A stretch of DNA of 64,000 nucleotides from Schizochytrium sp. TIO01 (lineage: Eukaryota; Sar; Bigyra; Thraustochytrida; Thraustochytriidae), in contig SMSO01000014.1 in NCBI GenBank assembly GCA_004764695.1, positions 757,148 to 821,147 on the forward strand, written 5' to 3'. Positions 2,007 through 63,309 of this stretch are shown here, piece after piece; position 1 is the first letter of the stretch; the number at the start of each line of letters is the position of its first letter. The notes beneath the pieces are model-generated. The model was not told the DNA's origin and did no database searches. It saw nothing but the letters and a program-made list of their open reading frames with translations. The position numbers and the translations under genes are program-made.

Positions 2007-2132
2007 TTAAGAGGAAGGGGGCGAGGAGAACCAACCGAATCCGATGGCGCTCTCAAGTCCTGGAGGCACCATTGGACGGCGGTTCACATCTTGCGCCGGT
2101 GGGACGCCATGTCCGCGCTGTTGTTGTTGTTG

Positions 2133-2169
<37 letters not shown>

Positions 2170-5100
2170 GATTGGGAGGCAGCAGCGCGTTGATGGATTG
2201 GCATGTGCCGGCCATGCGCATTTTGTTGTTGAGAGCGTTGAGATGACGGTTGAACATGCTGTTGGTCAGCATGCCCAAGCGCATGCGCAGAGCTGGGACG
2301 CTGAGGCGCAGACACCGGTACATGTTGCGGCGACATGCTGCCATGGGGAGTAAATCCAATTGGAGACATTGAGCGAGGTTGCACACGCACAGGCTGGTCT
2401 AGCACACGAGCAATTGCAAAAAAGACGGACCCACGCAACTGCATGAGCAAAGGTGCAGTAGGATTTCTACAAGATTCGATGGCTCGGTCCAGTTGCTCCG
2501 AAGTGATGGGTCCTAATTTAGCGAGACTATACAAAACATCATCGTTCATCACGTAATCCACAGACTCGTCACGAATACGAGCAACCAGATCGCGCCAGTG
2601 TGCTAAGGCAGTAAAAACACCACGCTGCACGACTGAAAACTGCTGGGTGTCATCATGTGCACGTTGAAGTTCGACAAGCTTGGCATTGATTGATTCTTGG
2701 GTGATGCTACGCTTCTGGTATGACTGCAAAGCAATGCTGCAACTCTGATTAAACACCTTTCGCAGTAAATCTTCGCCACCATGGTACCACAAGTAGTGAT
2801 AGATATCGAGCAAGTAATGAGAGAATTGTTGTGCATACTTAAGCTGCTCGAAGGAAAGTGGCCGCAAACGCCAGTCTGCTCCAGTTTCATTTGTGTTCAA
2901 TTCAACTTGCAGAAAGTGCTTCAGCATGCTCGCAAATGAATCGTTCTTCAGATCCATCTCAGCTGCCGCAATACGTAGATCAATCATATTCACAATGTAA
3001 ATGTTGAAGTCTCGCTGAAGCCAGCGTACAGCGCCTTCTGCGCCGTAAAGAACTTTGACGATTGAAGGATTTGCAAAGAATGGAGCAAGGACGTGGATGC
3101 TGCGACGCAAAGCAAGTGCATCAATCACAAAGTCACCGTTGTACGTAGAAATTTGAATAAGGCACAGAAAGCCTTGGTATGAGCGAAAGGAGTGGTTCTG
3201 AACTGAAACACCCACTTCTTTCAATCCGCTTGTGTCGAGCAGTCGAGCCAATTCTTCCAACTGGTACTCTTGCTCTACAAACTGGAATGGGAACTGAGGC
3301 AGGTTATGAGGGTTGCGAAATTTTTGTGGAGTCTTGAACGGGAGAGAGTTTGCGAAACGCAGGCGATTAATCTCATCGGTGTAAGGTGATGTCCAAGGTT
3401 CGCTCAAAAGCTTATCGCTGTTCAAAGGAGTAACCCCATGAGGTTTGAACTGAAGGCTTGGAATAAAAGGAGTCGTCGTATTGTCAACCTCAAATTTACG
3501 CTGCGGCCGAACCTTATCGTCATACGGCAGAGACTGAACGCTGCTTTCGTCCAAGTCATATGCTTCTTTCCATACGGAATCCGCTGAAAAGGATTCCAAA
3601 GCAGTGCTAACGAGGTCATCAACGTAAGCGTTAACCGTTTTGCTGGAGTTTTTCGCTCGGTTAGAAGAAGAAGCGGAATCACGTCGGCGGGAGTCATTGG
3701 TGTTCGCAGAAGCAGCTGTGCGCGCTGGCGGGTGGGACTGATGAGTTTGAGCACGAACAAGAGCAACACGAGCCTCGCGTAACTTCGCCTCCTGCGCTGA
3801 AACATCGCGCTGCAGCTCTGCGACTCTTCTCTTCAGGTTATCTCGATCACCTCGAACTGACTCGAGTTCACGACGTAAGTCACGTGTTTCTCTTTGCGCA
3901 CGATCGGCTTTGTCCTGAAGAAGTTGATTTGACTTGCGCATTGTTGTAATTTCGCGCTTGCTCGCGTCACAACTACGACGCTCCTTGTCAAGATCTGCTC
4001 GAGCCCGGTTGAGCTGTTCGCGAAGAGCAGCATGTGCCTCACGAGACACAGTGCCATTGTTCCGGGCGTCATCAGCTCCAGAAATGGCTCTGCCAAACAG
4101 AGAAGCCCTCTGATTAAGAGCTTCACGACTGGGGTCCCCAGGAGCAGCAGCGGTGGCAACAGTCGAAGGTCCCGTAATTACGGAAGATACGCCGCCACCA
4201 GAACTTGAGCTTCCCCCTACAGGAATGCTCGAGCTGAACGCGCGAGCTCCAGCAGGAGCCGCAGATGTAGAACGCCAGTTGCGCTCGGTAGCACCACTGC
4301 TTGTCTTCGCTGAAGTTACATTCGATAATGATGCTGAGGAAGAAGTCACCGGTGCTGAAGAGTTTGTTTCAGAGTTTGATGACATTGCGGCTGCCGCCAC
4401 CGATGCTGCACTATTAATATTTGCAGCAGCGGCACTTGAAGAGGGTCCAGTCTTCGTGGCTTTCGGCGCAGCGGTGTTCGCAGACACAATTTGTGTTTGC
4501 GTCTGTGACTTGGGCGCCTGTTGCTGCTGTTGAGTTTGAGCAGGTTTCGCAGAGGTCGTGGCTGCAGAATTCGTTGCTATTTTACGTGCAGCGCGAAGCT
4601 TCCATTGCTCTTGTTGCTGTTGCTGCCTTTGGATCTCCAATTGTGCTCGTTCTGCTGCAGCTGCTGCACTCGCTGCCGTCAGAGCCCCTGGCTTCATATC
4701 ATGCCGACTTCCCCCGCTGTTTGCCTTCGTTTTGCTGACTCCGTTGGCATCAGCTTCTGAATTAGTTGCCCCAACTCCATCGACATTTGCAGAACCTGCG
4801 ATATCCAAAGGACGTGTTGAGGGGCTTCCGAAGAGCCTCTCGGACTTCAAGTCCGGGGCTTCCATGACTTTGCTGTGCTCAGGGGTTGCTTCAGAAGTCT
4901 CAAGATGTTGCGGTTTTGATGCCGCTGCAGCTGCCGCTGCTGCTGCTGCTGCAAGTGACGCCTTGTGCTGGGCAGCTTTCGAGGCGTTAGTCATAGACGG
5001 TGGCAAAGCCGCATTCTTCGCTGCAAGAGCAGCTGCAGCAGCTGCTGCTGAGATTGATGCTGCCTGAACAGCAGGTCCATTGTTGTTTCCGTAGCCGCTG

Positions 5101-5741
5101 GAACCCCCGTAGCCGCCACGACCTCCTCGTGAGCTGTGAGATCCCTTGGGACCAGTACGTTCCCGCGAATCCCAGTGCGTTCTTGGATGGTCTCCTCCAC
5201 GTCGACCTCCTCGAGAACCTTGACGCGATCCAGAGGACCGAACGCTTGCTTGATCGCCGCTGCTCGTTGCGGCTCCTGAAGAAGCTGCTGTACTGCCTGC
5301 AGATGTCGAGGCAATGCTAGAACTTGAGAGTCCATGTCCGAGTGCCTCTGTGCTAAGGTTCGGAGCAGTCTTGTTTCCAGGGTTTGCAAACAATCCTCGG
5401 GACTGGTTGCTTGACGAGGTTGCGGACCCTAAGTTGCTGCTTCCACTATGACGCAGCATAGAAGCGGGAACATCTCCAGGTCGGGGCATAATGCTGCCGT
5501 CACTGGACACAATACGAGCAGACTGCAGCACTTGGCTCGTATCAATAGGAGCCCAAGGGGACTTACGCTCCGTATTTTCAGGCTCTGCTTGGTGAATAAT
5601 GACACCGGAAGTACTCAGAGTAACCATGCCAGTCATCGGAGCATTGTTTCCGGATGAGTTGGACCTTGAACCACTAATGTTGCCAGCCCTTGATGAAGAC
5701 GAACTGGCGTTCTTGCCTCCGCTACCCAGGCCCCGATTCAT
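2007..5741 (-). CDS. Rrp6/EXOSC10-family protein with a degenerate exonuclease site
   Basis: 1244 residues from an ATG at 5741. Residues 1-550 are low complexity (Ser, Ala and Gln runs; RGG-rich near 171-217). Residues 565-665 are a predicted coiled coil. Residues 755-990 match the Rrp6/EXOSC10 3'-5' exonuclease fold, including the ADWRLRPL signature (955-962), and 1045-1115 match its HRDC domain. A Q-rich tail follows. Active Rrp6 enzymes trim RNA in the nuclear exosome with four acidic residues plus a Tyr. Here the D-x-E of Exo I is S846/Q848, the Exo II Asp is A904 and the Exo III Asp is F973; only Y969 remains. I therefore infer a non-catalytic RNA-binding or scaffold role. The usual N-terminal PMC2NT domain is not visible. 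Family membership is secure; loss of activity is inferred from the residues. Confidence 0.9.
2118..2169. repeat. CTG/CAG trinucleotide repeat coding poly-Gln
   Basis: An interrupted run of TTG and CTG triplets (CAA/CAG on the coding strand) encodes the Gln tract near residues 1192-1208 of the Rrp6-like protein. It is the longest uninterrupted codon repeat in the window and is likely to vary in length between strains. Confidence 0.9.
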
Positions 5742-8700
5742 GACCTAATCCTAATTGGACTCTTACGAATCAGCAAAGTCTGCCTCTCCTGTGTATGTGA
5801 TTTGCTATGGACAGAGGAAGCTTTGTCTTTTAACTCAAGGTTTTTGTAGTGATTGACAGATTCCCACAGTCGCTTTGAGATAGACTTCCTATCTTTCAAT
5901 GTTTGTAGTTTGTTGTTCACTCCTTGGAAACGGTGGATAAGGTTTAATCAAACTGTCTTGCCTTGCGCACTATGACTTCAGGAATTGAACTATTTTGTTG
6001 CAATGTTCTTGCAGGGCGATGAAAAGCGATATTTCTACGGAGTATGATGACCTTTTCGTGGTTTTTGAAGAATCTCTAATTACTTTCGAAAAGTTGTGAG
6101 CGTTGCAGCGTGTAAGTTGTCTAGATATGAATCAATTCTTAAGAAGATTCACTTTAAGTCTCGCAAATCTTCCCTAGAATAGAGTTTTAGCGTTTCAATC
6201 TGGACCGAAGAAAATAGATCTGGAACGAAGGAAATTTTAAGATATCTCGCAGTTTTTGTGGCGCCTCAAAGAACAAATAAAAGAGAGAGAAAGAAGACCA
6301 GAAATAAAGAGGCTGGGGTGATTCCGCAAAAACCTTGTTTTAAACCCTCGGTGTCCACCAGCGAGAGTGTAGAATATAAAGTAAGTTTGAATGACTTTCT
6401 GTAGCTTTCACGTGTCCACTACTGTGAAGATCACTACTCTAAAGCCAAGTCTGTCAAAATTGAGGCCTTCCAGACTGGGCACTGACTATTAAAGAGACTT
6501 TTTGGTCAACTAAAAATGAAATCAGTAATGGACAATCTCAAGCAGTAAATCCACTCACTCTCCAACTTATAAGGTGTACTGCAGCGAAAGTAAAGGTTCG
6601 CGTATTGCACCAGCAATCGAATCCTAATTTTCTGTGAAATTCAGCGAAGAGATGGGATGTGACCCGAAAACGTGATCTCGTCGATACTCTTACGAGAAAG
6701 GATATTTACTGGAGAGAAAAAATATACCTTTCCGTCAAACCACGCTTAAGAAACCCTACTTCCTAGAAAGAGATATGGCCAATCCTTACCAGCGGAAAAG
6801 CCACGGAACAATCTTGTGCCCTTTATACCCTTTACTTCGTCCCCAGTTGCTTATCTTATTCGATAGATTAACAGTCGACCTGACCACACGATCACTCTAT
6901 GTGGAGAAGGTAGCTTGCTTGAAATAATTAAATGAGTGTACGGTCTGCAAAAGGTGTTGCCCCTTCACAAATGACAGTGCAGAATTGACTTGAGATTAAT
7001 GGCCCAGACAACCTGACAGTTTTACAGCCAGCGGTAATTGCTGCTTGTGGTTTTCGCAAACACCCAAACTCAACAGATGATATATCCTCTAGCCTTTAGA
7101 CTTTGTGTCAGTGGCCTTCTCAGAGCTCAACCTCGCCCCCTTCCGAAAGATCGATTTTTCTCCGCTCTTTCGTTGCAGCGGTTTCCACACAAATCTGTGC
7201 CGTATTACAAAAGGAGATGAAAATCACCAGATCAGGAACAGAAACAACGGCACTACCAAAGAAATGATTAAAATTGGCCTAGAGCAAACGTTACGAGCAC
7301 ACAGCCGCTCTCGATGCCGCAGTAGTCGGGTTCGGGTCCTTTACAGGCGCGAGCAAGAAGTCAAATCCACGCCACCGAGGCAAAGTGCACAGCGATGAGA
7401 GAATCAGGAAACAATAAAACAAACAACAATAAAAACAAAAACAACAACAAAAATAAGAACAGTAACGACGAAGAGAACAGCAGTAGCGAGAGTGCTGCAC
7501 AAGGAGGCCAGAGCGTGCCACACCGGAGTGGTTCGCGGACAGGAGCCTAGGCTGTGCTTCTGAGACCTAGTTTATTCGTTCGTTTCCACCGTTTGATCCT
7601 CTTTTTTGTCTCCGTTCCTCCCTCTGCTTCGTTGTTTCTGCTGCAGCGGCTTCTTCTTTCCGGGCTGCCCGATGAACGGATGGCCAGGTCTTGCGGCTTC
7701 AAGCTCGCAGCTCGGGAGAGCTTTTGCGGCGGCTCCGGAGCCGTTTAGTGCTTCCACGCCCTGCGTGCCTTCCCGCTCCTTCCCTCTACGCAGAGAGTTT
7801 CCAAGGTCGCCGCCGAGGACTGCAAGGCGATGCTCAATCTTCTTTTACAACACGATTCACAACATAATGTAGGATTATGGGCTGGTCAAAGTCTGTGTAT
7901 TATTATACATAGTTTGTCTCTACTCACGACATAACCACTGCTATGCGGTTTAAATAATAACAGATAACTAACTCACGAAGTATAAAGTAAGGGCAACATC
8001 GTTATGGCTTAAAAGGAATGGGAATGGCTGCGCATCAATGCCCACAGAGCTCTGGGGAGGATGGAAGCTGCCCGGAGGCTTGCCTCCTGATTTCAGGCAG
8101 GTCTTCGATCCAGATGTCTTTGCATGGATGGGTCAGATCGCTTGTACACTCGGAGAGAGTGGGTCATTCGTTGAAAATGCATTCAATTGCTTTTCTATCG
8201 TTTCTCCCCTTTGTAACTAAAGCCTTTTATCTGTTTCTTTTCTTTTTTTTCTGGTCGAGTCATCAAATGTATAACCATCAGGTAAGATGTGTGGTGGAGT
8301 GAGGAGAGAGTCTGTTGCCACCGAGGGCCTCAAATAGCCACAGGTATGCTCAATCATGACGCATAAAATCCTTGGCTAGCTCCCAACTCTCGCGACTCTC
8401 TGGTCCGATACTTGCGATTTTCTGGCCCGCCCATTGCAACGTTTTGAAGAGAAGAAGTTGCATGTGGCTGATTGGCAGGCAAGTAGTTTTAACTGACTTG
8501 GCAGTTAGTATAAGCTATTTATAATATCACATTCTTCACATGTGATGCGTATAACTGACTTCGAAGTACCTTTGTCTCTGGAAGGCAGCCACTCTTACGA
8601 TAATGGCTAGCCAATCGACTACCTAGCACCTTCTACTGTCACTATTGTGGGCCAGCAGCGTACCTCGAGGCTTTCCAGGTCGTCTTGCAGGTGGCTAGAC

Positions 8701-9430: not shown

Positions 9431-11761
9431 CTAGCAGCAACGCACTGCCCCGTTTCCGGAGTACTTACGGCAGCGCGTTGAATTGGTGGCATAGCGAGCC
9501 TGGTAGAATTTGTTTTTACCACATGAGTCGCTAGTCCACACGAACTGGTTGTCGAATTTGCAACCATTGTTCGTAATTCCAAGAATTGCTTCATCAGAAG
9601 TACAGAGTCGAAGTCCAAGCTCATCGCAGATATCTTCGGCATTTGTCTTGTCTGTCTCTGGGCATGAGTCTGGGGAAATGACTTCAACATCAGCAATAGA
9701 ATCGATTTCATCAACGTCGTAGCAGGCCTCCTTTTTACTCTGAGAGGGAAGGTAGGCCCAGCTACAAGCATCATTGGTGAGACACAAAGCTTCATCGAGC
9801 AGAGAGCAGGGAATATCTCCATCCGAGACATCATAGCAGCCATTGCTGCTAGTATCCCAAAGACAGTTGCTTTGCTTCTTACATTTGTTCTTCTTTTTGA
9901 GCGAAGAGCACGAGACTGTAGGCTTTGCAGTAGGCATCGGGGTTGGCGCCTTAGTAGGCTGCGGGGTTGGCAAAGTCGGAGATTTCGTGGTCGGATACGG
10001 CGTAGGCGCTGAAGTGCCGCCAAGACTGAGAGATCCAAGAGTAGCAGTAACCTCATAAGAGGAGTACTTGATCATGTTCTTAAAAGTTTGGCCGTCATCG
10101 TAGCTGATCATCACCGAAAGAATGCCCACGTTCTCGTTGCCGTAATAAGTTGGGCTGAAGATTTCTTCATCCGGGTCTACCAGGCTAATCATCACAGCAA
10201 CCGCGCCTTGGTCCTCAGCAACCTTGACCTTATCAAAGAAGAGGCAATCACCACGAGGTACAAGAACGACTTTGCCAGTGAAGTCGTCGTCGGTGGCATC
10301 GCAGAGGGTATCGGTGACCGCGACAAGTGGGCCTTGATAAAGAACAGTGTTGGAGAAATCAGCACCAAAGTTAGACTGAGCAAAGTCGATACAGGTCGAG
10401 TCTGAACCATCCCAAGCGCAGACAGTATCCGGGGCCAGGGTGGGAGGCATTGTAGGAGAAGCTGTCGGGGGAGTAGGCGGTCCGGTATAAAGAGGCACCT
10501 GAAGGAGTACATTTGGCGAATCCTCATCAATGCTGGAAAGCTTGTCAGCCACCATAAGACTAATGAGTTCGCTCTGGGCGCTGTCGCGATCCATACTATG
10601 CTTCTCCAGAAGGATCGCAGCAACACCAGCAACATGCGGTGTAGCCATTGAAGTTCCGCTCATAGTTGCAGTGGCGGTCTTGGAACCCTTGTAAGTTGAT
10701 GTGATGCTAGAACCAGGAGCAAAAATATCAACGCAGGAGCCGTAATTGGAGTACCCTGCAACAGAATCGGTTTTTGTTGTTGCACCAACCGTAAAGACGC
10801 CACCACTGCGAGCTTTACCACCAGCGCTGGCCGGGGAGGTCTTACATGCGTCCTGAGCCTCGTTTCCAGCTGCCACAACAACAATCATTCCTGCTTCGAC
10901 GGCTTCTTTCACAACATTGTTCATTGCACTACTCTTGCCACCACCAAGGGATAATGATAGCACTGCAGGCTCGCCATTGTAGTTATCAATTTGATTCTGG
11001 ACGGCCCATGCAACTCCTGAAATTACATTAGAGGTGGAACCAGAGCCGCTGGAAAGAAGCACCTTAACGCCCATGATATTGGCCTCGCTGGCGATACCGT
11101 AGCTTCCTCCAGCAGCTGTGCCTGAGCAATGGGTACCATGGCCATTTCCGTCGGAAATGCCGGTGCCATCTTCTGATGTAAAATCTTTAGCAAGGGAGGC
11201 CCGGCCACCAAAATCGTTATGCGCGTAGTTGATGCCAGTGTCGATGACATAAATGTTGACGCCTTTACCAGTGTATGCGCGCTGGAAAGTAGACTTACTC
11301 AACGGAAGAGATTCCTGGTCGATACGATCAAGACCCCATGAATTCGGTGCGCCGTCAGTGGTAACCTCGTTATCTGTTTCAACCTTGACGCCAGACATAT
11401 TTCTGACAAATTCAACGAGCTCCTCATCTGGAGCATCAAAAAGCACGTTGCAGGTGGTTGTCACCTTGGCAGTTGAAACGCCCATCTCTCCATCATCTTC
11501 CTCGGTCGAACGACCATAGGTATTGGTTTCGTTTTCTCTTTTCCAGTCTTGAATCATCTTTTTGACGGTATTACATGCGACGCCATCCTGATCATCATCC
11601 TCGACAATCGCAATCCATTTATCCTCAACTTGAAGTCCGCGACGAGACTTGATAAGTGCTCGACGGGCGAGAGTATGAGCATCTGCATCGCGAACAAGAA
11701 CACCAGATGTACTTGTAGCGAGTGTGGCAACTAGGCCAAGTAGATACACGAGTTTGACCAT
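9431..11761 (-). CDS. secreted subtilisin-like serine protease (S8) with PA domain and Cys-rich tail
   Basis: 776 residues from ATG 11761. Residues 1-20 form a signal peptide. A propeptide of the I9 inhibitor type runs to about 140. The S8 catalytic domain spans about 145-395: Asp174 in VIDTG, His208 in GNGHGTH, oxyanion Asn300 in AAGN, and Ser371 in SGTSMATPH, as in proteinase K-type subtilases. After a Pro-Thr linker (427-443) comes a PA domain (about 480-575, with GKVVLVPRGDC); a second Pro-Thr linker (585-615) leads to a Cys-rich region ending in RCC. The PA domain lies after the catalytic domain rather than inserted in it. The enzyme should be exported and cleaved to activate, acting as an extracellular or vacuolar endopeptidase. 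The whole gene is one uninterrupted ORF with all catalytic residues intact. Confidence 0.95.
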   Translation of the reverse strand: MVKLVYLLGLVATLATSTSGVLVRDADAHTLARRALIKSRRGLQVEDKWIAIVEDDDQDGVACNTVKKMIQDWKRENETNTYGRSTEEDDGEMGVSTAKVTTTCNVLFDAPDEELVEFVRNMSGVKVETDNEVTTDGAPNSWGLDRIDQESLPLSKSTFQRAYTGKGVNIYVIDTGINYAHNDFGGRASLAKDFTSEDGTGISDGNGHGTHCSGTAAGGSYGIASEANIMGVKVLLSSGSGSTSNVISGVAWAVQNQIDNYNGEPAVLSLSLGGGKSSAMNNVVKEAVEAGMIVVVAAGNEAQDACKTSPASAGGKARSGGVFTVGATTKTDSVAGYSNYGSCVDIFAPGSSITSTYKGSKTATATMSGTSMATPHVAGVAAILLEKHSMDRDSAQSELISLMVADKLSSIDEDSPNVLLQVPLYTGPPTPPTASPTMPPTLAPDTVCAWDGSDSTCIDFAQSNFGADFSNTVLYQGPLVAVTDTLCDATDDDFTGKVVLVPRGDCLFFDKVKVAEDQGAVAVMISLVDPDEEIFSPTYYGNENVGILSVMISYDDGQTFKNMIKYSSYEVTATLGSLSLGGTSAPTPYPTTKSPTLPTPQPTKAPTPMPTAKPTVSCSSLKKKNKCKKQSNCLWDTSSNGCYDVSDGDIPCSLLDEALCLTNDACSWAYLPSQSKKEACYDVDEIDSIADVEVISPDSCPETDKTNAEDICDELGLRLCTSDEAILGITNNGCKFDNQFVWTSDSCGKNKFYQARYATNSTRCRKYSGNGAVRCC

Positions 11762-14700
11762 GATGCTTCTCTATGGCGTATGGAATATGGATATACAACT
11801 CGTACAACAAACTTGCAAAGAGTCTATATTGATTAGGATCTGTGTGATCTCTTTAGAGATATTTTGGGTTTGCTGTTAAAAGTTTTGATGTTTTGCAGGA
11901 TTCGGTTGTCCCGGGAGAAACGATAGGCAAATTGCTTGCCTCTTTCAGTGTTCCAAGAACTCAATTCGGTGGGTAGGGATAATGCAACTTAGCTTTGGTT
12001 GGTAGAAGCTCCTACCAATAAAAGCTAATTTGTAAGTCTAACTTCGCGTTGCTTGCCTTAAACTCGTTGAGTTTGTGGTTTGCTCCCGCTTCTGCGTTTG
12101 GGATCTGCTGTTTTCAATAACTTGGCCATTTTGATTTTTTGATCTTTTTCTTGGATGGTAGGTTGATGTACATCCTATTCCTTCGAATTATATTATCTGA
12201 CTGAAAATAGAGTGCTGTCCCCTCCAACTATGCCTATAGATAAATTCAAAGCATTCGGGAACGGGTGTGTCTCCCAGAAGCATCGAGACATCTCCCGCGC
12301 TCTTTTTTTTTTTTTTTTTTTTTTTCTTTCTCAAATTGTCCTCTTACAAGGTTAGCATTTTAATTAAAAACTTCTTTAATAGAATTTATAAATCGGACGA
12401 TGTGTATGGACAAAGGTGTGTAATAAATGGAAAGGTCTTGTGATTAACAATAGAAGCATATTCCTTCAGTCGCTTCTCATGCTGCTGCAGGTTCTGCAAA
12501 CCTATACGCACCTTTTCAGATCAATCATCACCAGAGGAACATATGGATGTTTCTTTCACTCTTCGTTTTGTTTTCCTCCAAACACATCGATACTTTTTTT
12601 AAGTACTCACTTTTGAAGAACAATTAAAATGGTGCGCCCGCGCTCAACCGTCTTTCCTAAGAAAGGAGCTAAGTATTGAGGTACATAGGCTGGCTCCTCT
12701 TGCGCTACGTGCGTCAGTCTATCAATCAACGTAGACCTACCCATATGAAGCAATACTACTATCGTAAATAAATTTAAAGATATACTGTTTTCTAACTTCC
12801 ATCTTTAAAAACTACTCTCCACGCTCAGTACGCTTCTTCACAGATTGCATTGCAATTGTCATGGCCTCTCCATCATTCATCATACGATTGATTTGCTTAC
12901 CTCAATGACGGCCGCCACATCGCTCGCGAACCTTTCAATGTGGAGCACCACTTCGACCGCCTGCTGCGAATATGATCCGACCTTTCTAAAAGACACATAG
13001 ATTTATCAACAGTTACAGGTGTCCGGTAATGTATCGCTCTGTTGTCATCGCCCGCCTCCGCTTAGCTCGGAGAACCATAGAGTTCATTAAGTTGGCAGCG
13101 GACGACTTGAACAAAATAAAAACGTGAGTGCAGACGTCCATACCCTTATCCTGGAACAGAGATAGATGATCTTATAACATGTGCCAGCAAAAGTTGTCAT
13201 ACAAACTGATTAGGTACACAAATCGTTTTCTGTAAAAATAGAACAATTAAAAAAATATAAAAATGAAATAAAATGGAAATTTAAAAAACGAAACACTCTA
13301 GCAACACAAACGCATTTCTGTCTCGCTTCTTTAGACGTGCTTGCAGATTACTTTGAGATACACTATACCCTTTATTTTGGCTACCACCTTGCTATCTTGC
13401 AAGATTTATATGCTTCATCTGTGGCTGGTTATTTATTTGTGCATTTAGGGTCCGCGCCCGCGGCGTATGTTTCCAAGAGCGCGGGCAAGCTCGCTTTTTC
13501 TTTGTTTCTTCGCAAGTAAAGTGAGCCCGGTGTGCGGTTTCTTTTCAAGAACGAGAGGATGAAAGGCAAATTGCAGCGGCTTGCAGCTCGTAGCCCGCAT
13601 GGCTCGCACCAACTATCGTGGCAGAGCTCCATTTTCATGCAAAACTTAATACGGTGCACACCTTCATGAGTTTGATTTTGAGCCTTTGATAAGAGATCCG
13701 GCTGACAACGCCTTCAGTCGGACGCCACATCATGACACTGTAGTATTTTATCTAAGTTTATCCCTATTGATAATTGTCTCCCTTTTTTTCTTTTTTTGGT
13801 TCCTGTCTCCTTCTCCTTCAAGCATGATATAATTTATTTGTTTGTTTTGTTTTAAATTAACTTTTAATTTTAAAGTACAATAGCAATAATAGCAATAGGA
13901 AGAAGAAGAATAATAATAAGAATAATAAATTCTATTTCCAACATTCTCGACTGAAAGACCTCAAAAACACACCTCAGACCATGTTTTTGCAGTGTTCTGC
14001 CGAAATTAAAAAAAAAAATGGGAAACTAGTTATAATGATCAATATCGAGCTTTAAACCTACGTGGTTTTAAACGTGGGGATCCATTGCACTAAACAACGG
14101 CGACCCGGTCACTGGCATGCCGCTGATCGTGTCCATATTTATTCATGTTGAAATCGAGTGCATTTGTTTCTGAAGCTACTTGAGATCGCATGCATCAAAG
14201 AAGGAACAGAAAAGCTAATGAGTCAAGCCAGCATCGTCATCTCATGGCAACTCATAGCGTACAACACGCAACAAAAACCGAACTAAGCCTGATGGTTAGT
14301 GGCCCTGAGAGAGATAGCCAATGTATTACATGTGTCTGTCCAGCCTCTGCTTAGCAGCGCGGAGGTCATGCGAATTAGTAAAAGTGCAGGATGTATGGAC
14401 GCTAAAGCGAGCCCCGCAATTGGGGACCGACCGCTTCACTAACTGTCCGCGGCACGAAACCAGGCAGCTGTAAGGCTTTCTACCATATGAATAACCAAAT
14501 TGCTCTACTTTGATCTTTAGCCCTCCTGGTCCTGTTGACATTTCTCGCCTGAATTGTCTAGTTGTAACGGATATTTCTTTAAAACGCCACAGGTTGAGCC
14601 TACCACCATACAGCATGCTGGCACCAAAGACCATCCATGGAACAAAATCCAGGTGAAAATAGCACGTGCAGGTTGCATTGAAGCATCCTCCTCCTTATTA

Positions 14701-17700: not shown

Positions 17701-18935
17701 TGTCTTTTTAAATCTTTGAGAACTCCGTTCGCAATAGTCAAGAGTAGGAACTGAAACAAAATGCCATCAATGTCCATCCAAAGCTAACATTTTGCAACAT
17801 AAATCTCTGAATGGCGTCAAGAAGTTGCGTTAGACGAAATCTCAAGAAACGATCATACTCAGCTAGATTGACTTTCATATCGGCCATATCATAACCCTAT
17901 TCAGAAATTTTTGTTTGTACTTTTCTTAAAGGGTGTCAAATGACTTACTTTTATGGTTCGAATCGGATCGAGTGCGAAGATTTTGTATTGTGTATCAGCG
18001 CAATTTTAAACTGGATTCTCAGCGGCCTCTTTCACTCTCAAATCTATAGCCTCAATCTCACAAACTTCACCTCTCCTTGGGGCGGACTGGTCAAATTCAA
18101 TTTAATACCTCATTTTTCTTCTCCTAGTTTTCTGACCTTGCATAAATTTTCCGCAAATTTTTGCGTTTATCAAGTCAGAAGAGTGTAGAGGAATCTTTCA
18201 GTCTAAACTTTGCCAGATCGTGCATTTGGAGACTTGCAGAACTAGTAGTAGCTGAAATAGCAAACAATCAAGGAAGTACGTCCTTGTTTCTATATTTTCA
18301 CGATAGTAATTCCTAACTCCCTTAATCTCGCACGCGGAAGACCCTATATGCCTGTCTCAGTGTCCATATCAGCGCTCATATAAATCAGTTGTAAATTCAT
18401 CATCCAAATTGACCGTCCTCATATGGTTCAGCCTCAAAGCGAATAGAGTCCGACTACTTACTAATTACCAAATTGATAGAGGATACCAAAAGTAGAAAGA
18501 GTATATCTCAGCATGTACAAGAGGCCAAGTGAAACCTATCTTTCGGAGCCAAGGGCTCCATTCACCGCAAACACTTCTGAGACTCGCAAGGAGGTCATGG
18601 TTGCAGTGAATCCGCATCATACTCTTTCTTAGGTTCCAATGTGCGCAATATAGCAACAGTAACTGTCGTTCGTGTGCTTGACAAACTAGACTTCTACAAT
18701 TGATTGCTACATAAACTACAACAACCTCCCCAAATCTACCTCAAGTTCTTATCAACGTACCTGCTTGCCCACCTGCAGCAGTATTGCACGGGTTCGGATA
18801 GCTGTATCTCCGCTTCTGCGCTTCCAGAGGACAACCAAGAAGCAAAGCAACGAATCACTAGAATCACTCACTAGCTTACCATGCTTACCATAGGTTTATA
18901 TATCTTTGATTCATACCATTTATCATCAGTCAGTT
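11762..18935. other. long AT-rich stretch without a supported gene
   Basis: Seven kilobases upstream of the subtilisin gene. The first few hundred bases presumably hold its promoter. A 23-base T run lies at 12303-12325. Minus-strand open frames at 14326-14634, 14882-15160 and 15239-15550 (about 90-100 residues each) lie in sequence and could be pieces of an eroded or multi-exon gene, but I recognise no family and found no convincing splice sites. The remainder (15.6-18.9 kb) shows only short random open frames. Confidence 0.5.
12303..12325. repeat. poly-T tract
   Basis: Twenty-three consecutive T residues, the longest mononucleotide run seen in the window. It lies about 540 bp upstream of the subtilisin start, so it could be a nucleosome-excluding promoter element or a remnant poly(A) tail read on the other strand. 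No retrocopy body is visible beside it. Confidence 0.85.
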
Positions 18936-19008
18936 GCTTCGATAACTCAGTTGGTAGAGTGGTAGGTTTACACCCTGCAAGTCTTGGGATCGACGCCCGA
19001 TCGAAGTA
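18936..19008 (+). tRNA. tRNA-Val (anticodon UAC)
   Basis: The 73-base sequence folds into a complete cloverleaf. The 7-bp acceptor stem (GCTTCGA with TCGAAGT) begins with a G-U pair. The D stem is ACTC/GAGT with an AGTTGGTA loop. The anticodon stem is GTAGG/CCTGC around loop TTTACAC, giving anticodon TAC, which reads the Val codon GUA. The variable loop has 5 bases, the T stem is TTGGG/CCCGA, and the discriminator base is A. There is no intron. The T loop is ATCGACG, so the usual T54 is A, which weakens the B box; D-stem position 10 is A instead of G. A Pol III terminator lies just downstream. This is a likely functional nuclear tRNA gene, or possibly a slightly degenerate copy. Confidence 0.85.
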
Positions 19009-19020
19009 ATAGAGGATTTC

Positions 19021-19824: not shown

Positions 19825-22455
19825 TTATTTGTGGAAAAGGGTGGAGAAGCCTTCATTTGCAGTGACAGAGACTGCTACAGCAGAAATGCTACTTGAAACG
19901 CGAAACATAAGATCACTGACACTGTCTTCAATACCTCTGGGATAAGCAGTAACTTCACCAGAGCTTGTTGGCCACTTTACCAACACAATGTCCACGAAAA
20001 CTGTGTATGGAGTGTTGCTGGATTCTAAAGACTGCATAAGTTTATACTTCCACATGAGCGCGAGACGAGCAGCCATATGATTGATACTCTCGTCTGGACG
20101 AGATACCAAAGTGAAAACAAAGATGAGCTCATCCCGGTTCAGTGTAGGAGCGATATCTTCTAAATCCCCATTCTCTTCAGACTCGGATTCCAAGTCCACT
20201 TCAGCATCGATGTTGAACAAGTGAAAACGCGAGAAAACATGCAAGGCGTCCACAGGCGCTTTCTTCGGAAGGGATGAATCATTAGCAAAAATCACGGAGT
20301 ACGGCAAGGTAGATGGATCTGCAAAACACACAGTGCCGTATCCACGAGTTCGGGTTGCATCGTAACCAACGTTATATACACCAGTGCCTGGGCGATTTGA
20401 GCCACGGAATTCGAACCCAACAGGTCTCCACAGTGACAAGTGTCGCGAACAAAGTCTGAAGTAGTCAGAGCGCGGAGAAATATTTCCTCGGGTTTTGACA
20501 TGGGAACGGATCTCAGAAAGGTAAATACTTCCCGAGCGCGTCACGGCTTCTTTTGCGCACATTCGAAGACGAAAAGAATCGGCGGCAATGTATGCCATCT
20601 CCTCCTCGTTTCGGGGCAGGCACGACAAACTTGCGGAATAAACTACATTAGCCCACATGTTAAGAGCAGCAATAATAATAGGGGACATGTGGACATAGAG
20701 ATTCTGCTCATCCGCTTCAAGTGCAAACAGGCCACTATGTTGGGCAGCCTCCAGAGACATATTGAGGGGGAAATCCTTGAGCCAAACATTACCAAATGTC
20801 CATGGATCAGAACTGTTCCTTACGGGCTGACGAGTAATAGCCAAAGCCAACAAATGCTTCATTGCACCAATGCTGACATTTTTCACAATCTCCAAATTTG
20901 TATGTTCAACATAGTCATCTACGGTGGTATATGTGCAAGTTGAAGCAGGGGGGAGGTTGAGAGCTGAGTGTACTTGTGAGCGCCACGTGGCATCCTTAAA
21001 GATAGACCCAAGCAAATTAAGCATATCTTTTCTTAACTCTCTTGCCCCGGCCAGATCTAGCTGTCCGTTTACAACTTTATGGGCGATCTTACCTCTTTCG
21101 AGAATCGAATCACTCAAGAATGTGTAAAATCGTGGATGGCCATCAATTTCATCCAGTAGATTTCTCACTAGATGCCCATCTCCAAGGATGATGTCTTCGA
21201 TTTCAGTTGGATCTTGCTGAGGAATGTTGCCCTCAAACTCGTAAAAAACATGAAGGGCAAACTGGCGCTCTAGACGCTCTTTAGCTTCTGGGTAAGCAGA
21301 AAACCCAGAAAGATGAATTTGCTTTGCACCTGTCACATCGCTGACAGTTGAATGGCGGTTGGTTTCCTGGTCATTGAGCTCGACGTAACTAGTCATGCCT
21401 GTGACAATAGGGTAAACACGAGTAAATTTATCACGATTGAGCTCGAGCGTCTGGGCACAGGTCTGCATCAAGGCCAGGGTTCCCTGAAGATCTTCACGAT
21501 ATTCATCAATCTGAAGGAAAATAGTATCAATCCCGAGGTCTTTTTTCAATCGACTCATGAACTGGTCTAACGTGAACTTTGTGTCGCCACACATGAGCCC
21601 TCGTAAGACCTCATCGTTTGGCATGACTCCACCTTGTAGAAGGGTAAGTAAGGTTGCAATCATGAAGCACTTGCCGTTGACTCGTCTTTGTGTGTTCGTG
21701 AAAAAGGCAGACCTGAGACCGGGAAGCTGCCTCATACAACGCATAAGGAAAATGCCTTTCTGCCCGCTCTTTTGGAGCATTCGGATGCTTGTGATTGAGA
21801 GTTCATATCCAAGCCGAGTCTTACCTGCTCCTGACGGACCTTTGATGATCGGGAAGTAGAAGTGCTGCGGACTAATGTACCGCTGGTTGATAAGACGCTT
21901 AGTAGTACTTCGCATTCGCGCAAATGCTGGTTCCGTCATTTCACTCATAATGTAATTTACGAAGTCGAAGTGGTCTCGGTCAAGATCCTCTTCTAACTCT
22001 GTTGTTGACTCGGGAAGGTCCAGACTTGAAAGTTCAAGAGAGTCGAACTTAGTACTTGTGTCAAAACGCATCGTGAGTGCGTCTAAGACTTCGTTCTGCT
22101 CCATCTCGCTGCAGCTATCCTGTAAGAAAACAATGTCAAAGAGAACGTACGAAATGACTTTACGGAGGCTCCAGCCTTCACCAATATACCGCAATATGAA
22201 GAAGACAGCGGACTTTGTAGCAAGGTTATAGTCTGAGTTACGAAGGTTCAGAATACAAAAAACGAACTCTGCAAGTTGCTCGTGCTCTATAGCTTGCTCA
22301 AGCTCCTGTTTATCTGGATATTCCTGCTCGAGAGAGTCAATGATGAGGCCAACGTAATTTCCTTCGGGCGGATCAGCGCTATTCACAGCTCTCAGAACGT
22401 CTTCGACCAGGACAGTTTCCTCTTCACTAAACAAATATTCTACGATCACGCTCAT
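19825..22455 (-). CDS. large P-loop NTPase, STAND/Crinkler-like, function unknown
   Basis: 876 residues; the frame runs seven codons further upstream only to a GTG, so I start at ATG 22455 (MSVIVEYLF). Residues 1-195 are helical and acidic. A P-loop domain follows: Walker A GPSGAGKTR near 206-214, a Walker B-like hydrophobic run ending in Asp317-Glu318 (FLQIDEY), and a sensor-like VTGMTS near 351-356. This layout (N-terminal domain, P-loop with IDE, long variable C terminus) resembles STAND-type ATPases and the NTPase module of Crinkler-type proteins in oomycetes and other eukaryotes. I see no N-terminal LFLAK or ubiquitin-like module and no clear nuclease motif in the C-terminal 300 residues, which contain an acidic loop near 755-770. 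It is uninterrupted and intron-free. ATP or GTP binding is likely; the biological role is unknown. Confidence 0.85.
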   Translation of the reverse strand: MSVIVEYLFSEEETVLVEDVLRAVNSADPPEGNYVGLIIDSLEQEYPDKQELEQAIEHEQLAEFVFCILNLRNSDYNLATKSAVFFILRYIGEGWSLRKVISYVLFDIVFLQDSCSEMEQNEVLDALTMRFDTSTKFDSLELSSLDLPESTTELEEDLDRDHFDFVNYIMSEMTEPAFARMRSTTKRLINQRYISPQHFYFPIIKGPSGAGKTRLGYELSITSIRMLQKSGQKGIFLMRCMRQLPGLRSAFFTNTQRRVNGKCFMIATLLTLLQGGVMPNDEVLRGLMCGDTKFTLDQFMSRLKKDLGIDTIFLQIDEYREDLQGTLALMQTCAQTLELNRDKFTRVYPIVTGMTSYVELNDQETNRHSTVSDVTGAKQIHLSGFSAYPEAKERLERQFALHVFYEFEGNIPQQDPTEIEDIILGDGHLVRNLLDEIDGHPRFYTFLSDSILERGKIAHKVVNGQLDLAGARELRKDMLNLLGSIFKDATWRSQVHSALNLPPASTCTYTTVDDYVEHTNLEIVKNVSIGAMKHLLALAITRQPVRNSSDPWTFGNVWLKDFPLNMSLEAAQHSGLFALEADEQNLYVHMSPIIIAALNMWANVVYSASLSCLPRNEEEMAYIAADSFRLRMCAKEAVTRSGSIYLSEIRSHVKTRGNISPRSDYFRLCSRHLSLWRPVGFEFRGSNRPGTGVYNVGYDATRTRGYGTVCFADPSTLPYSVIFANDSSLPKKAPVDALHVFSRFHLFNIDAEVDLESESEENGDLEDIAPTLNRDELIFVFTLVSRPDESINHMAARLALMWKYKLMQSLESSNTPYTVFVDIVLVKWPTSSGEVTAYPRGIEDSVSDLMFRVSSSISAVAVSVTANEGFSTLFHK

Positions 22456-25400
22456 GAGTGAGAACAAGCCAAGCACAACCTCACCTCAGATGGGTATGGG
22501 ATGTTTTGGGATTGGTTGTGGAACCGATACTCGATACAAACTTAAATGTAATGTCTCAGCATTCCGGATTTGCTGATTGCTTGATCTTCAAGATTTGTAG
22601 AATTTATGAGCATAGGTACTTGTATTTGTGGGAAGTTGAAGCGAGTACAATCGTTCCTCTCACATTCGGGTCACTTAAAAAAAATATTAGGTAGTAGTTT
22701 TACGATCGCCATAGCAGTCACGTGAGCTTGTAGGACAACATTTACAAAGGCCAAGCAGACAGATCCAAATAATTGGGCTCCTCGAGCGAGGGAACATGTT
22801 CAATCGAGCTGCTCCAGGGCTCTGGGCTACCTAGTGTTTAGACAAATTGGAGAATCGAGTGCCCGGTTCATGGTACATGTCGCGGTCGTTTCGCCACGCT
22901 TGAGATCTCCGAGCAAGCTAATGATATCTAGCAGAGTCCTACTTCCGACGCAAGACCGTGACTCTTTTGGCTTCGACGCACACCCCATTCGAGTTTCACG
23001 CGCCGAGCATTCTGGAAAGTGGTTTGAGCTTGTGGCTTCGTTTTGAGTTTATTGATTGCGAAGCATGAACCCCCCTCCCGCTGCCGGGCAATAGCAGTAG
23101 TAGTAGGATCTCCTATCTTGGTGGGGATTATATTATCATCGTCGATTCATGTATTATTATGAAGGTTGATAAGGGAGACATCACGGAGGTGTGCGCTACT
23201 AGCTAGTAGCACCTTTATTCAAACGATTACAAATCCACAAAGTCAGAGGCTGCGACCAGCTTGCATTTATCAAAGCCGTTGCAAATTAGGAAGCCCGATT
23301 TTTCCACACACCGGTGTTTCCCAGCATGATTGTCTTTCCTATTACTACGTGCTACAGAAACAACACGTGAAAAACATTGATAAATGAAAGACCAGAGCTA
23401 GTCCCATTAGGGCACCCGTTATCTTGTGGGGGGGCGGCAGGCTATCTCACAGCAACTTTCGATCCAAACCTTTCAAGTTATGAGTAATTTGTGAGGAAAC
23501 TATGGTCACCAATCCTCTCTAAGAGTTTTGTTACAATAGCATGGTGTGTTTGAAGCTCCTCTACCGCATGATGCCAGGGCCAACCTTGGTGTGCGCTTTG
23601 CCTCCAGGCTTCAGCTAGGACAGTATACTACTGAAAATCCTCAAAAGATCTTTTCGGAGATCGAGTAACTTTCCTACTGCAAGGACTTGAGTTTTCATCA
23701 CCAAGAAATTCACTTGCGAAGTAAAAGAAAATTCTGCTTCATAGCTTAATTGCAACGTAAAAGGCTCCATGAAGAAGCATGATCTAAGTTAGGGATTCTT
23801 TTTTAGTGACTCTATATCTGCCCAACAATTAATTCAGATTTTGTTATCCACGTTCTATAATTGCGCCTGTGGAACCAAATGATTGTGTGCCTTGGCCTCT
23901 CAAAATTTCTACTTCTTTCAAGTTATCCTTCAGGACCTATATTGGTTAGGTAAAACCTCTGACGATCTCGTATTCGCGGAATTATCCGAACCGTGATCCT
24001 AAAATCTACAAGAATCTATTTAAGTGAATTTGTAAAATACTAACGCGGGTCTTGGCGCCATGAAACGTGACATTGTTGAGAGCAAGTATCAGGCTCGCAG
24101 TATGCGGGCAATATTGGCAGGCCATCAGTTTCACGAAACACCTTCTAGGCATAAGACGGTTTGTCAATTTCGAAGAAATTTAGATTCGCCAAGCCGAATT
24201 ACTACCAAAAACTAAGGTGAGTCCAAGTACCTTTTAGGGCTAATGATGCCAATCTGTCACAATATAAATTAGATTTGCCAGGGAATCAGCATTTTGAGAT
24301 CATCATTGATCATGTTAGACATAATAGCTCATGCACATCGAGAATTTATGTGTATACCTACTATGAAACGATTATGCAAAAGCGAACACATCATGTATTT
24401 GTCCTCGACAGCGACTGGACATGTAATGCGAACGTCATTTTTGAATATAAACTAGTGTATGGAAGTAGTGGCTCGTAAAACATGAAAAGATGAGCCTTGG
24501 ATGTGAAAAAAGTTCTTGAGAAAGTTATATATGAGCCATGGAGGATATACGTGCCGAAAGCTGACCTGTGAGGATGATTAATGAAGATAGTGTTGTCAAG
24601 GATTAGAGGTCGAGCATAGTAACGCATGAAGGCTTAGTAGTTCTGACTAGTGGATCAGCGACCTATCTACCTTGGTACAGTGTCCCAGCTCTTGCAATCA
24701 TTATAGTTGATAAGCATTTATGACGTATTATGGATTTAGACATGGTTCGAAGACATCAGATGAGGTGAGAGTTTCTCACAGACTTTTTGCCGTTGATGTT
24801 AGTTTCGTTTATTTGCAATTTGTCGAGAGTGCTTAGGGATTATTTTAGAATTTTGAATTAGTGGCTTAGGAATCATGCGATACATTTTCTGACGTTTCGC
24901 AAAGCAAAATTCTCCAAAGGATATCCCTTAGCAGTGCTGCAACTACCTACTCTCCCGATGATCGATGCCAGCGATTTGTACGTCTTTCAGACAATCCGCG
25001 AAATAGGATTTTAATGCAGATGCTGCACCATAGACAATACTCTCGGGACTGTTGCTGCTGAAAGGTGATTCTTACAAAAAATACTGATTCCGTATTAACC
25101 TGATTATATACACTTGCGTAAATACTCCTGGTGTTCAGAGATATCAAGTACGTTACTTGTATGACAATTTTATGCTCCTTCTTGAAATTGCTGAAGCTCT
25201 TTCAAATCTCCAAAGCTTGCAGATGCAGAGTGACTACATGTTTCTTCACATGTTCAAGTGAATTCGTTGGTACTGTTAATATACAATTTATAACTCCAGT
25301 CCCGGAGAGCGTAGACGCTAGCTGGAGGATTATGTGCAAAACACTTCAACAGAATCTCTAGCAAATCAGTGTAGACCTTCAAGGTCTATAGGAAAAGCAC

Positions 25401-60203: not shown

Positions 60204-61451
60204 TTATGAAGACTTCATTTTGCCAGATTTTTTTGACTTTTTTGCTGCGGTCTTTGATGTCGCTGATCCCTCTTGTTTTTTACGAAGCTCGTTAAGAACA
60301 CGCAGATAAGGTGGCGAAATGACGTCTACAATATTTGCAATAGGTCCTTTATTGTAGATATTGTTAGGAAGTCGCAGGGGGAAGTCTCTAGCGCGTCGGT
60401 CAAACAAAGGGGGTGCAGTATCTGGATTGATCTTTTCAGCCTCTACCTCCGGGTCAGGTTTCTCCTTCAATTCCGGATAGTCTTCAGGGTTCTTCTTTGC
60501 GAGTTGGTCTCGGCTTTTATAATATTGAGCAATGCTTCCCCATTTCGCGCTCTCATTAGTAGTGTAGCCACTGATGATGAGATATACATGATAGAGGTAG
60601 AACGCGAAAACAACTATACCCATGACAGCTGAAAGCACCAAGAGCATACATAAGATTGTCTTGCGCAAAAAAACGAAGGTGAACACCATAGACCAGCTCG
60701 CGGGGTTTCGCTCACCTGTTTCGCGGTTGATAAAACTTCGCTCCCACAAATGATGGCTATCAATAAAATCCATAAGAATGTAAGCAATGCCATAGCTTGC
60801 ATAAAACAAAAGCCCAACAGTACTAAGCAAAAAGGTGAGAAATTTGTAATAGTTTGCTTCTCCAACGCATGTGTTGATCCAAGGGCAGTGGTGGTCAAAG
60901 CGACTCACGCACACATTGCAGATACTGCAATGTTTAGATCTTGCTGGTTTGTGAAATTTGCAGGTAGGGCATGAGCGGTCCTTGACATACAAGAAGCCAT
61001 CGTAGGGCCAATGATCATAGACAGGAAGATTTTCAGCAGAGATTCTTCCGGGATCGCTCCGGCTCGCGCGAATAAAAGTCATGAGCGTGAAAAGGACTGA
61101 CGCATGACTAGTGTACAAATGAATTTCACCGAGGTAACGATTGGGAATGTATGGCATGGCCTCAAAATTAAAGGCGATGAAACCACCTACAACGAGAGCT
61201 AAGTACACAATCTGCAAAATGGGATTTGGCTTATTGCAAACATAGTCCACGGTACCTTTCCAGCACCCCACCAGCGAGCTTCCACATGGTAGCGAGCCCA
61301 CAAGCTTCTCAGCTTGTTTGGGGAGCCACACTGTACAAGACCATGTCGTGCGGCCCAAGAGGCCGTTATCCTCTGCGTCGCCCATGAAACAAATGCATAC
61401 TAGTGCAATGATCACTGTGAAGTATACCAAGCTCGCTGTTAGGATGTCCAT
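60204..61451 (-). CDS. DHHC palmitoyltransferase, ZDHHC4/Swf1 type
   Basis: 415 residues from ATG 61451. Membrane helices lie at about 5-22, 78-97, 112-128, 205-228 and 262-292. The Cys-rich DHHC domain (about 155-205) has CPTCKFHKPARSKHC and then DHHCPWINTCVG, with catalytic Cys189 in D186-H-H-C189. After the last helix comes TTNE (297-300), the TTxE motif of the family. Such enzymes transfer palmitate from acyl-CoA to cysteines of membrane-associated proteins, usually in the ER or Golgi. The N-terminal pair of helices and the NxxVGxxNYxxF context resemble ZDHHC4 and yeast Swf1, which acts on transmembrane proteins near the bilayer. The tail is Lys/Ser-rich (KKSKKSGKMKSS). The gene is uninterrupted and all zinc-binding and catalytic residues are present. 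Confidence 0.95.
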   Translation of the reverse strand: MDILTASLVYFTVIIALVCICFMGDAEDNGLLGRTTWSCTVWLPKQAEKLVGSLPCGSSLVGCWKGTVDYVCNKPNPILQIVYLALVVGGFIAFNFEAMPYIPNRYLGEIHLYTSHASVLFTLMTFIRASRSDPGRISAENLPVYDHWPYDGFLYVKDRSCPTCKFHKPARSKHCSICNVCVSRFDHHCPWINTCVGEANYYKFLTFLLSTVGLLFYASYGIAYILMDFIDSHHLWERSFINRETGERNPASWSMVFTFVFLRKTILCMLLVLSAVMGIVVFAFYLYHVYLIISGYTTNESAKWGSIAQYYKSRDQLAKKNPEDYPELKEKPDPEVEAEKINPDTAPPLFDRRARDFPLRLPNNIYNKGPIANIVDVISPPYLRVLNELRKKQEGSATSKTAAKKSKKSGKMKSS

Positions 61452-63309
61452 CTTTCCTCAAATCGCTCTTTGGAGGCGCGCAGCCTTAATCGTTGATAAC
61501 GAGTTCGTGTCGTACAGGTCCTCGTCCGGGTATCAACAACGAACTTTGAATCCCTTTTTGCAGATCTGCAATCCGACTCACGCCACACACTCACACACAC
61601 GCAAAGTGCAATCTGCTACGCCTCTGCCAGCAGCTGGTGGCTCGCACGCGCTGGCCTAGTTGGCCAAGCGAGTGCAGCAAGGTCAGCAGATAGGGCTTCA
61701 ATGAAGTTTTATTGCCAAGTGTCGCTGTTCCTTTTCTTTATCAAACAATTCTAACCTAGTAGAAATATGCACTAAGACAAGGAAAAAAGAAAATTGAAAT
61801 GTTAAACTAGAAAAACTAGAAACTATAATATAAAATATTAGGCTAGCAAGGTGAGTACTCTTTGGGTTTGTAAAAGCCAACCCTCGGATTAGTAAAGTTA
61901 CCACATGTGCAAGTTTATCTGGTTGCTATTAAAAAAGTTAATGAACACTACTTCAATTGATTTTGTAAAGAACATGAGCATTGTAATAGTTCAGAAAAGT
62001 GAAGACACTATCACATCAATGTAATATTCGAAAAGACAATAGCACGGAATTGAAGAAGGCAATAAATGGCATAGCCTACCGTTTCTCTTTCCTTATTTTG
62101 AACGAACTTTGTATTCGTAATTCTTCTGTTAAGTTAATTCAACTAGATTCATGAAGATCTGCCAGCTCTCAAGCAAGGCAACATATTTGAGTAGAAAATT
62201 GTAAGCCTTTTAAGCGTCGATCACATCCACAGACCATAATTACGCGGTATCGATCAACTAAACACCGTACACAAACCCATAATGATAATTTAAGTTTACT
62301 AATAAACGGGGTATCTCTTGAGGTGCGATTTGGCTTTAGCACAGCTTCAGAGAGAACTAATATATAGTTAACACGAATTTATTTGATCGACGTGCATTGC
62401 ACACACGTTGTTAAAGATGAAACTCATTGGGTTAATAACATGTCGTCTGCCTGAAATAGTCCTACTATAGAAGTTGATCAGTATAATTTATAAATTTGCC
62501 TCTGTTGAAAAGGTTCGTGGTGTGTCAATATTTGAAAAGCTGAAGTATGTCAACATGATGTCCCTACATTCTGGGTACAAGTATAGATCAATCTTTATTT
62601 GGTGAATACTGAATATATAAATTTGAGCACCTTGGAACGAAGTGCTATTTCATTTTGTCTATGAATTTGAAAAAACAAATAAAGTAATATAAAAAGCAGA
62701 AAACTCATCTAGATAGCTGCGGTCTTAGGGTTTGAAAAAGCAGACAGATAGGTTTGCAATATAAATTTATTATCTTGCAAATCAAAGTCAGCACGACAAT
62801 CACGGTGATTTACATTCGTTGGTTCTCAACTTTTGATGAAAAGAAGATAGTGTTGAGGGAGGAGACAAGTTTCAAAGCTAAAGTGGAGATCTTATGTAGG
62901 TACAATAAACTCCAGAAAAAGATTGATCTCGAGCTCATTTTATAGTCATCCCTGGAGCAGTAATACTGGCAAGAAAGAGAATGTTTCAAGATGCTCATGA
63001 ACGAAGATAACTCTCGAAAGGAACTAGTAAAAAAGGCGTCTACTAATATTTTAGATACTATCATAGTAGGGACCTTTAAAAAAAAAATCAAGTTGAGCAA
63101 AGAAAAAAGTAACCCAAACAGAGCATTTACAAACCCTGAACAGTTGGGGGGACTGTTTGTACAGTCAAGAGAATAGTCGCCTCCAGACTCAAGGCCCTCC
63201 ACAACTTGCAAATTCCTTCGCCACCGTACCCTGAGCGAATGAATAAGTGCTTGCTTCTCTAGAGCACTTTTGTCTATCTCACAATCTACAAAACCTCATC
63301 AACAACGTC
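61452..63309. other. divergent intergenic region
   Basis: About 1.9 kb between divergently transcribed genes. The left part should hold the DHHC promoter and the right part that of the gene at 63310. An open frame on the minus strand at 62810-63211 (133 codons, hydrophobic) is opposed by Lys-rich frames on the plus strand at 62754-62945 and 62991-63176; none resembles a known family, and A/T bias explains the residue composition. I support no gene here. Confidence 0.5.

Follow-up and report, generated by a model that had tools for sequence, protein, structure and literature searches.

The locus described here encodes a homologue of Rrp6/EXOSC10 whose catalytic acids are replaced, and it raises the question of what such a protein could do if it no longer degrades RNA. 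The gene lies in the window, a stretch of 64,000 nucleotides corresponding to positions 757148-821147 of contig C13, in a genome of 64.06 Mb and 37 contigs. The encoded protein, hereafter pseudo-Rrp6, is probably an old and constrained Rrp6 pseudonuclease, which would now serve as a non-catalytic platform binding RNA and/or protein.

Pseudo-Rrp6 is encoded by a minus-strand open reading frame of 1245 codons (window 2007-5744), the second codon being the ATG, and its residues are numbered from this Met as 1. Pfam recognizes a DNA_pol_A_exo1 domain (PF01612, 4.1e-30) and an HRDC domain (1e-8), with no other match at E ≤ 1. Among 17 PDB matches the best 13 are human, yeast, or trypanosome Rrp6/EXOSC10 (top match 2.4e-51), and on the Pfam and PDB matches the exonuclease domain is of the Rrp6 type. 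The RPQxxF...DN...PFxP linker of Rrp6/EXOSC10 is present ahead of this domain. Particularly, the signatures listed in the preliminary description (RSYQGFLCLIQIST, WLQRDF, ADWRLRPL, and HRDC) were all located, together with the long low-complexity N terminus, its four RGG motifs, and its coiled-coil-like stretch. Residues 1-740 are rich in Ala (128) and Ser (127). In the coiled-coil-like stretch (residues 566-666), hydrophobic residues (LIVMAFY) occupy 20 of the 29 a/d positions and 12 of the 72 others, a pattern matched by none of 5000 shuffles. PMC2NT has no Pfam match in pseudo-Rrp6 at E ≤ 1, and a search for the Mtr4 arch-interacting motif (L[FYW]x[VIL]D) gave no match in the protein. The features of the gene are collected in Table 1.

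Table 1 Features of the pseudo-Rrp6 gene, in window coordinates.
Feature	Position	Strand	Remark
Pseudo-Rrp6 CDS	2007..5741	-	1244 aa from first ATG; one open frame, stop codon included
Four clustered RGG motifs (residues 177-210) in long Ala/Ser-rich N-terminal part	5112..5213	-	
Coiled-coil-like stretch (residues 566-666)	3744..4046	-	heptad pattern
Rrp6-type linker (KVRPQRKFEVDNTTTPFIP...), N-terminal of exonuclease domain	3285..3515	-	9/11 family-invariant residues kept
DEDDy 3'-5' exonuclease domain	2787..3284	-	PF01612, 4.1e-30; without catalytic acids
S846 replacing first catalytic Asp (Exo I)	3204..3206	-	
Q848 replacing catalytic Glu (Exo I)	3198..3200	-	
Y899 replacing invariant His of HGA motif	3045..3047	-	alignment column
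A904 replacing catalytic Asp of Exo II	3030..3032	-	
T950-N-E-T953 replacing family K-x-Y-Q ahead of ADWR	2883..2894	-	alignment columns
Y969, Exo III Tyr, kept	2835..2837	-	
F973 replacing catalytic Asp of Exo III	2823..2825	-	
HRDC domain, C-terminal of exonuclease domain	2484..2627	-	PF00570, 1e-8; profile 1-48 of 68
Poly-Gln tract in C-terminal tail	2118..2168	-	17 residues; CAG/CAA codons mixed

Other genes are visible in the same window. Read by eye, the minus strand carries a subtilisin-like protease frame (9431-11770), whose linkers are PTxxPT-rich and which may encode a signal peptide, an 886-aa frame with the P-loop GPSGAGKT, recalling the large ATPase families that have expanded in certain protists (19825-22485), and a frame resembling a DHHC-type palmitoyltransferase (60204-61457). 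A tRNA-Val with anticodon TAC is located on the plus strand (18935-19009).

The DEDDy set of Rrp6/EXOSC10 (D, E, D, Y, and D) is absent from pseudo-Rrp6, which has S, Q, A, Y, and F. Residues S846, Q848, A904, and F973 correspond to Asp, Glu, Asp, and Asp in human, yeast, and T. brucei Rrp6 and in a paralogue encoded on contig C30. The same register is obtained with phmmer (against human EXOSC10 and T. brucei RRP6) and in a five-sequence MAFFT alignment; both agree with the codons in confirming the earlier claim that all four acids are replaced and Tyr969 is kept. No acid stands in register at any of the four sites, and the only acids within five residues of them are E842 and E902. The column of E902 is variable in the MAFFT alignment (Asp in the C30 paralogue and human, Phe in yeast, Arg in T. 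brucei), so by alignment E902 is not a shifted catalytic acid. Beyond the acids, other motifs are changed in pseudo-Rrp6: HGA at its His, NKxYQ at its Lys, Tyr, and Gln, and FDT at its Thr. The Lys of NKxYQ presumably lies near the Rrp6 active site. With the four acids gone, the two metal ions should not be held, and the DEDD mechanism predicts that RNA would not be degraded. Moreover, since residues around the former 3'-end pocket are changed, this pocket may have lost its hold on RNA.

A second, intact Rrp6 is encoded in the same genome, as the preliminary description had suggested looking for. A six-frame genome search with pseudo-Rrp6 returned itself and one other place, on contig C30 (2.3e-63, 35% identity over query residues 745-1210). 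The C30 gene (L007:1264-4512, minus strand, 1082 codons) contains PMC2NT (3.4e-11), exonuclease (2.1e-44), and HRDC (1.8e-13) domains with every catalytic residue present, and it holds the single match of the PMC2NT profile over the genome (E ≤ 1). In addition, the genome contains a Dis3-type protein (L028) that combines PIN and RNB domains and two further RNB proteins, an MTR4_beta-barrel match (6.1e-31; another, at 0.04, does not pass the cut-off), an MPP6 match (5.0e-15), 11 RNase PH matches, and two Sas10/Utp3/C1D-family matches, one of which is a 155-codon frame. Given the C30 Rrp6 and these exosome-gene matches, an active-type nuclear exosome is expected, and pseudo-Rrp6 is not the sole Rrp6.

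The third RNB protein (L030:579-4499, on C30) has RNB and Dis3 cold-shock domains and no PIN domain by Pfam at E ≤ 0.01, an N-terminal stretch occupying the place of the Dis3 PIN; we take it to resemble the DIS3L type with a dead PIN. Six places in the genome match DNA_pol_A_exo1. Apart from both Rrp6 copies, the frames of the other four, when read, proved not to be Rrp6: two resemble EXD3/Mut7, one fuses an exonuclease to an ATPase, and one is DNA polymerase A-like. A 3'-5' exonuclease domain and a P-loop ATPase segment (GEPGSGKTT) share one frame in the translation of L004 (C33), and in L003 (C34) an exonuclease domain is followed in one frame by segments that by eye are YbaK-like and Mut7-C-like.

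The conservation of pseudo-Rrp6 was assessed at 84 invariant columns, defined as those identical in the C30 paralogue and in human, yeast, and T. brucei Rrp6. Pseudo-Rrp6 keeps 60 of them and loses 24: the linker accounts for 2 losses (of 11 columns), the exonuclease part for 21 (of 61), and the HRDC side for 1 (of 12). The earlier statement that the fold signatures are well preserved thus stands for the linker and the HRDC side, and only partly for the exonuclease part (40/61 kept). The 24 losses include every one of the four acids (hypergeometric P = 0.0055 under random placement). Near an acid (up to four columns away), losses (7/16) are not significantly denser than elsewhere (17/68; p = 0.22), and the exonuclease domain may therefore be relaxed in general. 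The same count gives 6/66 losses for the paralogue, 5/65 for human, 10/70 for yeast, and 13/73 (3 gaps) for T. brucei, each compared with the remaining four sequences, pseudo-Rrp6 among the references, so that these sets of 65-73 columns are not strictly the 84 columns.

Comparison with the C30 paralogue points to a long divergence. Among 131 identical residues (Met and Trp excluded), 47 share the same codon, with 46.6 expected if codons were independent. Over 373 aligned codons, identity is 0.44 at the first codon position, 0.61 at the second, and 0.32 at the third. Synonymous sites are saturated, so the protein identity that is kept reflects long selection. A stretch of 340 random codons should contain about 19 stops; here there are none. 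These results, with most linker and HRDC-side invariants kept, bear out the earlier view that the protein is under constraint. In the tree of the five aligned sequences (pseudo-Rrp6, its C30 paralogue, and human, yeast, and T. brucei Rrp6), the pseudo-Rrp6 branch is 1.42 and that of the C30 paralogue 0.68; with supports of 41 and 46 and a bootstrap consensus that differs from the best tree, it does not place the duplication in time. Pseudo-Rrp6 appears to have evolved faster in its exonuclease part, its module being kept and its frame not decayed. No relative was confirmed among the pattern matches in viral (2 and 29) or prokaryotic (13) contig collections.

Three explanations compete with the reading of pseudo-Rrp6 as a constrained pseudonuclease. 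An assembly or sequencing error could be suspected, as a single copy is seen in the genome, but the changes span about 380 bases of an open frame diverged throughout, and neither Asp to Ser nor Asp to Phe can arise by a single base change; we consider an error hardly credible. Activity could also persist through other metal ligands such as E902, which lies two residues before A904, and the retained Y969 would agree with this. Non-acids at all four sites, the variable E902 column, and the alteration of other conserved pocket motifs make such activity very improbable. A decaying or non-functional copy is very unlikely too. In favour of decay, the branch is roughly double that of the paralogue in length, at the supports given above, and the losses (24 of 84) exceed those of the other four sequences (5-13 out of 65-73); against decay stand the 1245 open codons, over which about 70 stops are expected at random, the 36% identity retained despite synonymous saturation, and the conserved linker and HRDC side. 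Judged from its sequence, pseudo-Rrp6 would thus count as a pseudonuclease, belonging to a nuclease family, having lost the catalytic residues, and retaining a constrained frame.

As a pseudonuclease, pseudo-Rrp6 probably uses its exonuclease-HRDC module as a platform binding RNA and/or protein. The RGG-bearing basic N-terminal region would aid RNA binding, and the coiled coil could provide self-association. Pseudo-Rrp6 would then select, hold, or protect RNAs, with degradation left to the separate Rrp6 and Dis3. The aligned module carries a net charge of +1 in pseudo-Rrp6 versus -5 to -8 in four active-type homologues (336 to 390 residues), and the module of residues 742-1125 alone is neutral (net 0, pI 7.3). 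At pI 9.8, the whole protein is basic, mainly owing to its N-terminal part, and this charge would suit RNA binding. RNA tethering would be in keeping with the RGG motifs and with an N-terminal part that is basic. Since PMC2NT is not detectable, pseudo-Rrp6 is probably not paired with Rrp47.

It is conceivable, if rather doubtful, that pseudo-Rrp6 is still an exosome subunit, which would sit on the S1/KH ring, compete with the active Rrp6, and favour RNA threading to Dis3. Such a role is in line with the MTR4, MPP6, Dis3, and RNase PH matches in the genome, with the well kept linker and HRDC side, and with the report, in the passages cited here, that dead yeast Rrp6 (D238N) supports Dis3 and Mtr4-dependent decay in reconstituted exosomes (PMC5553935). 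According to the same passages, yeast Rrp6 is tethered to the core by its C-terminal EAR and stimulates through its lasso, and PMC2NT is the Rrp47 site (PMC5553935). PMC2NT was not found in pseudo-Rrp6, and no EAR or lasso was recognized there, nor by phmmer in the intact copy, whose alignment ends at about residue 543 of the slice and leaves the C-terminal tail unaligned. An adaptor is preferred over a second exosome subunit because PMC2NT was not found and an EAR was not recognized. Of the preliminary description, the constrained pseudo-exonuclease is upheld by the sequence and by the intact second copy, and the role as an exosome factor is not, PMC2NT being missing from the matches.

A bolder version of the platform reading is that the dead Rrp6 forms a coiled-coil oligomer with an RGG arm and competes with or antagonizes the active Rrp6, protecting chosen nuclear RNAs; we regard this as speculative and on balance unlikely. 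It would be the natural counterpart of the dominant-negative RRP6 mutants of Drosophila cells, where overexpressed dead RRP6 is described in the cited passages as dominant negative (PMC4577213), which suggests a way for a natural dead copy to protect RNAs. Non-catalytic roles of Rrp6 are so far known from engineered mutants, and no natural Rrp6 pseudoenzyme is described among the open-licence PMC literature matches listed. If true, a natural, constrained, acid-less Rrp6 beside an intact one would mean that evolution has split catalysis from a role in structure or RNA binding, and pseudo-Rrp6 would offer a system for studying the non-catalytic role of Rrp6 alone.

Pseudo-Rrp6 shares the order of linker, exonuclease domain, and HRDC domain with Rrp6/EXOSC10 (PM/Scl-100), the DEDDy 3'-5' exoribonuclease of the nuclear exosome, and its aligned module shares 37% identity with human Rrp6 and 31% with yeast Rrp6. 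Unlike Rrp6/EXOSC10, it has lost the four acids, shows no recognizable PMC2NT at the Pfam threshold used, and contains the RGG/coiled-coil N-terminal part and the Gln-rich tail. In EXD1, Maelstrom, and Exuperantia, an exonuclease-like fold serves RNA binding or scaffolding, not catalysis. To our knowledge, neither these three proteins nor Egalitarian are Rrp6 orthologues, and they are without HRDC or the Rrp6 linker.

In the passages cited, EXD1, Maelstrom, and Exuperantia are counted as pseudonucleases, and Ssd1 and others are RNA-binding pseudonucleases (PMC8097288). Ssd1 and other fungal Dis3L2-derived pseudonucleases have an RNase II fold, and thus belong to a nuclease family other than that of pseudo-Rrp6. 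Arabidopsis, with RRP6L1 and RRP6L2, likewise has several Rrp6-like proteins in one genome, and their roles are described in the cited passages as partly exosome-independent (PMC5735172, PMC4161302, PMC3610620). Unlike pseudo-Rrp6, RRP6L1 and RRP6L2 are called exoribonucleases in these passages, where a loss of the four acids is not stated, and the comparison is one of descriptions only. The exonuclease-homology domain of Egalitarian is reported, in the part of the work cited, to contact the localizing RNA about 15 A from the putative catalytic residues, which are dispensable (PMC13186709). Egalitarian uses an exonuclease-like fold for RNA binding or scaffolding and not for catalysis (PMC13186709), as is proposed here for pseudo-Rrp6.
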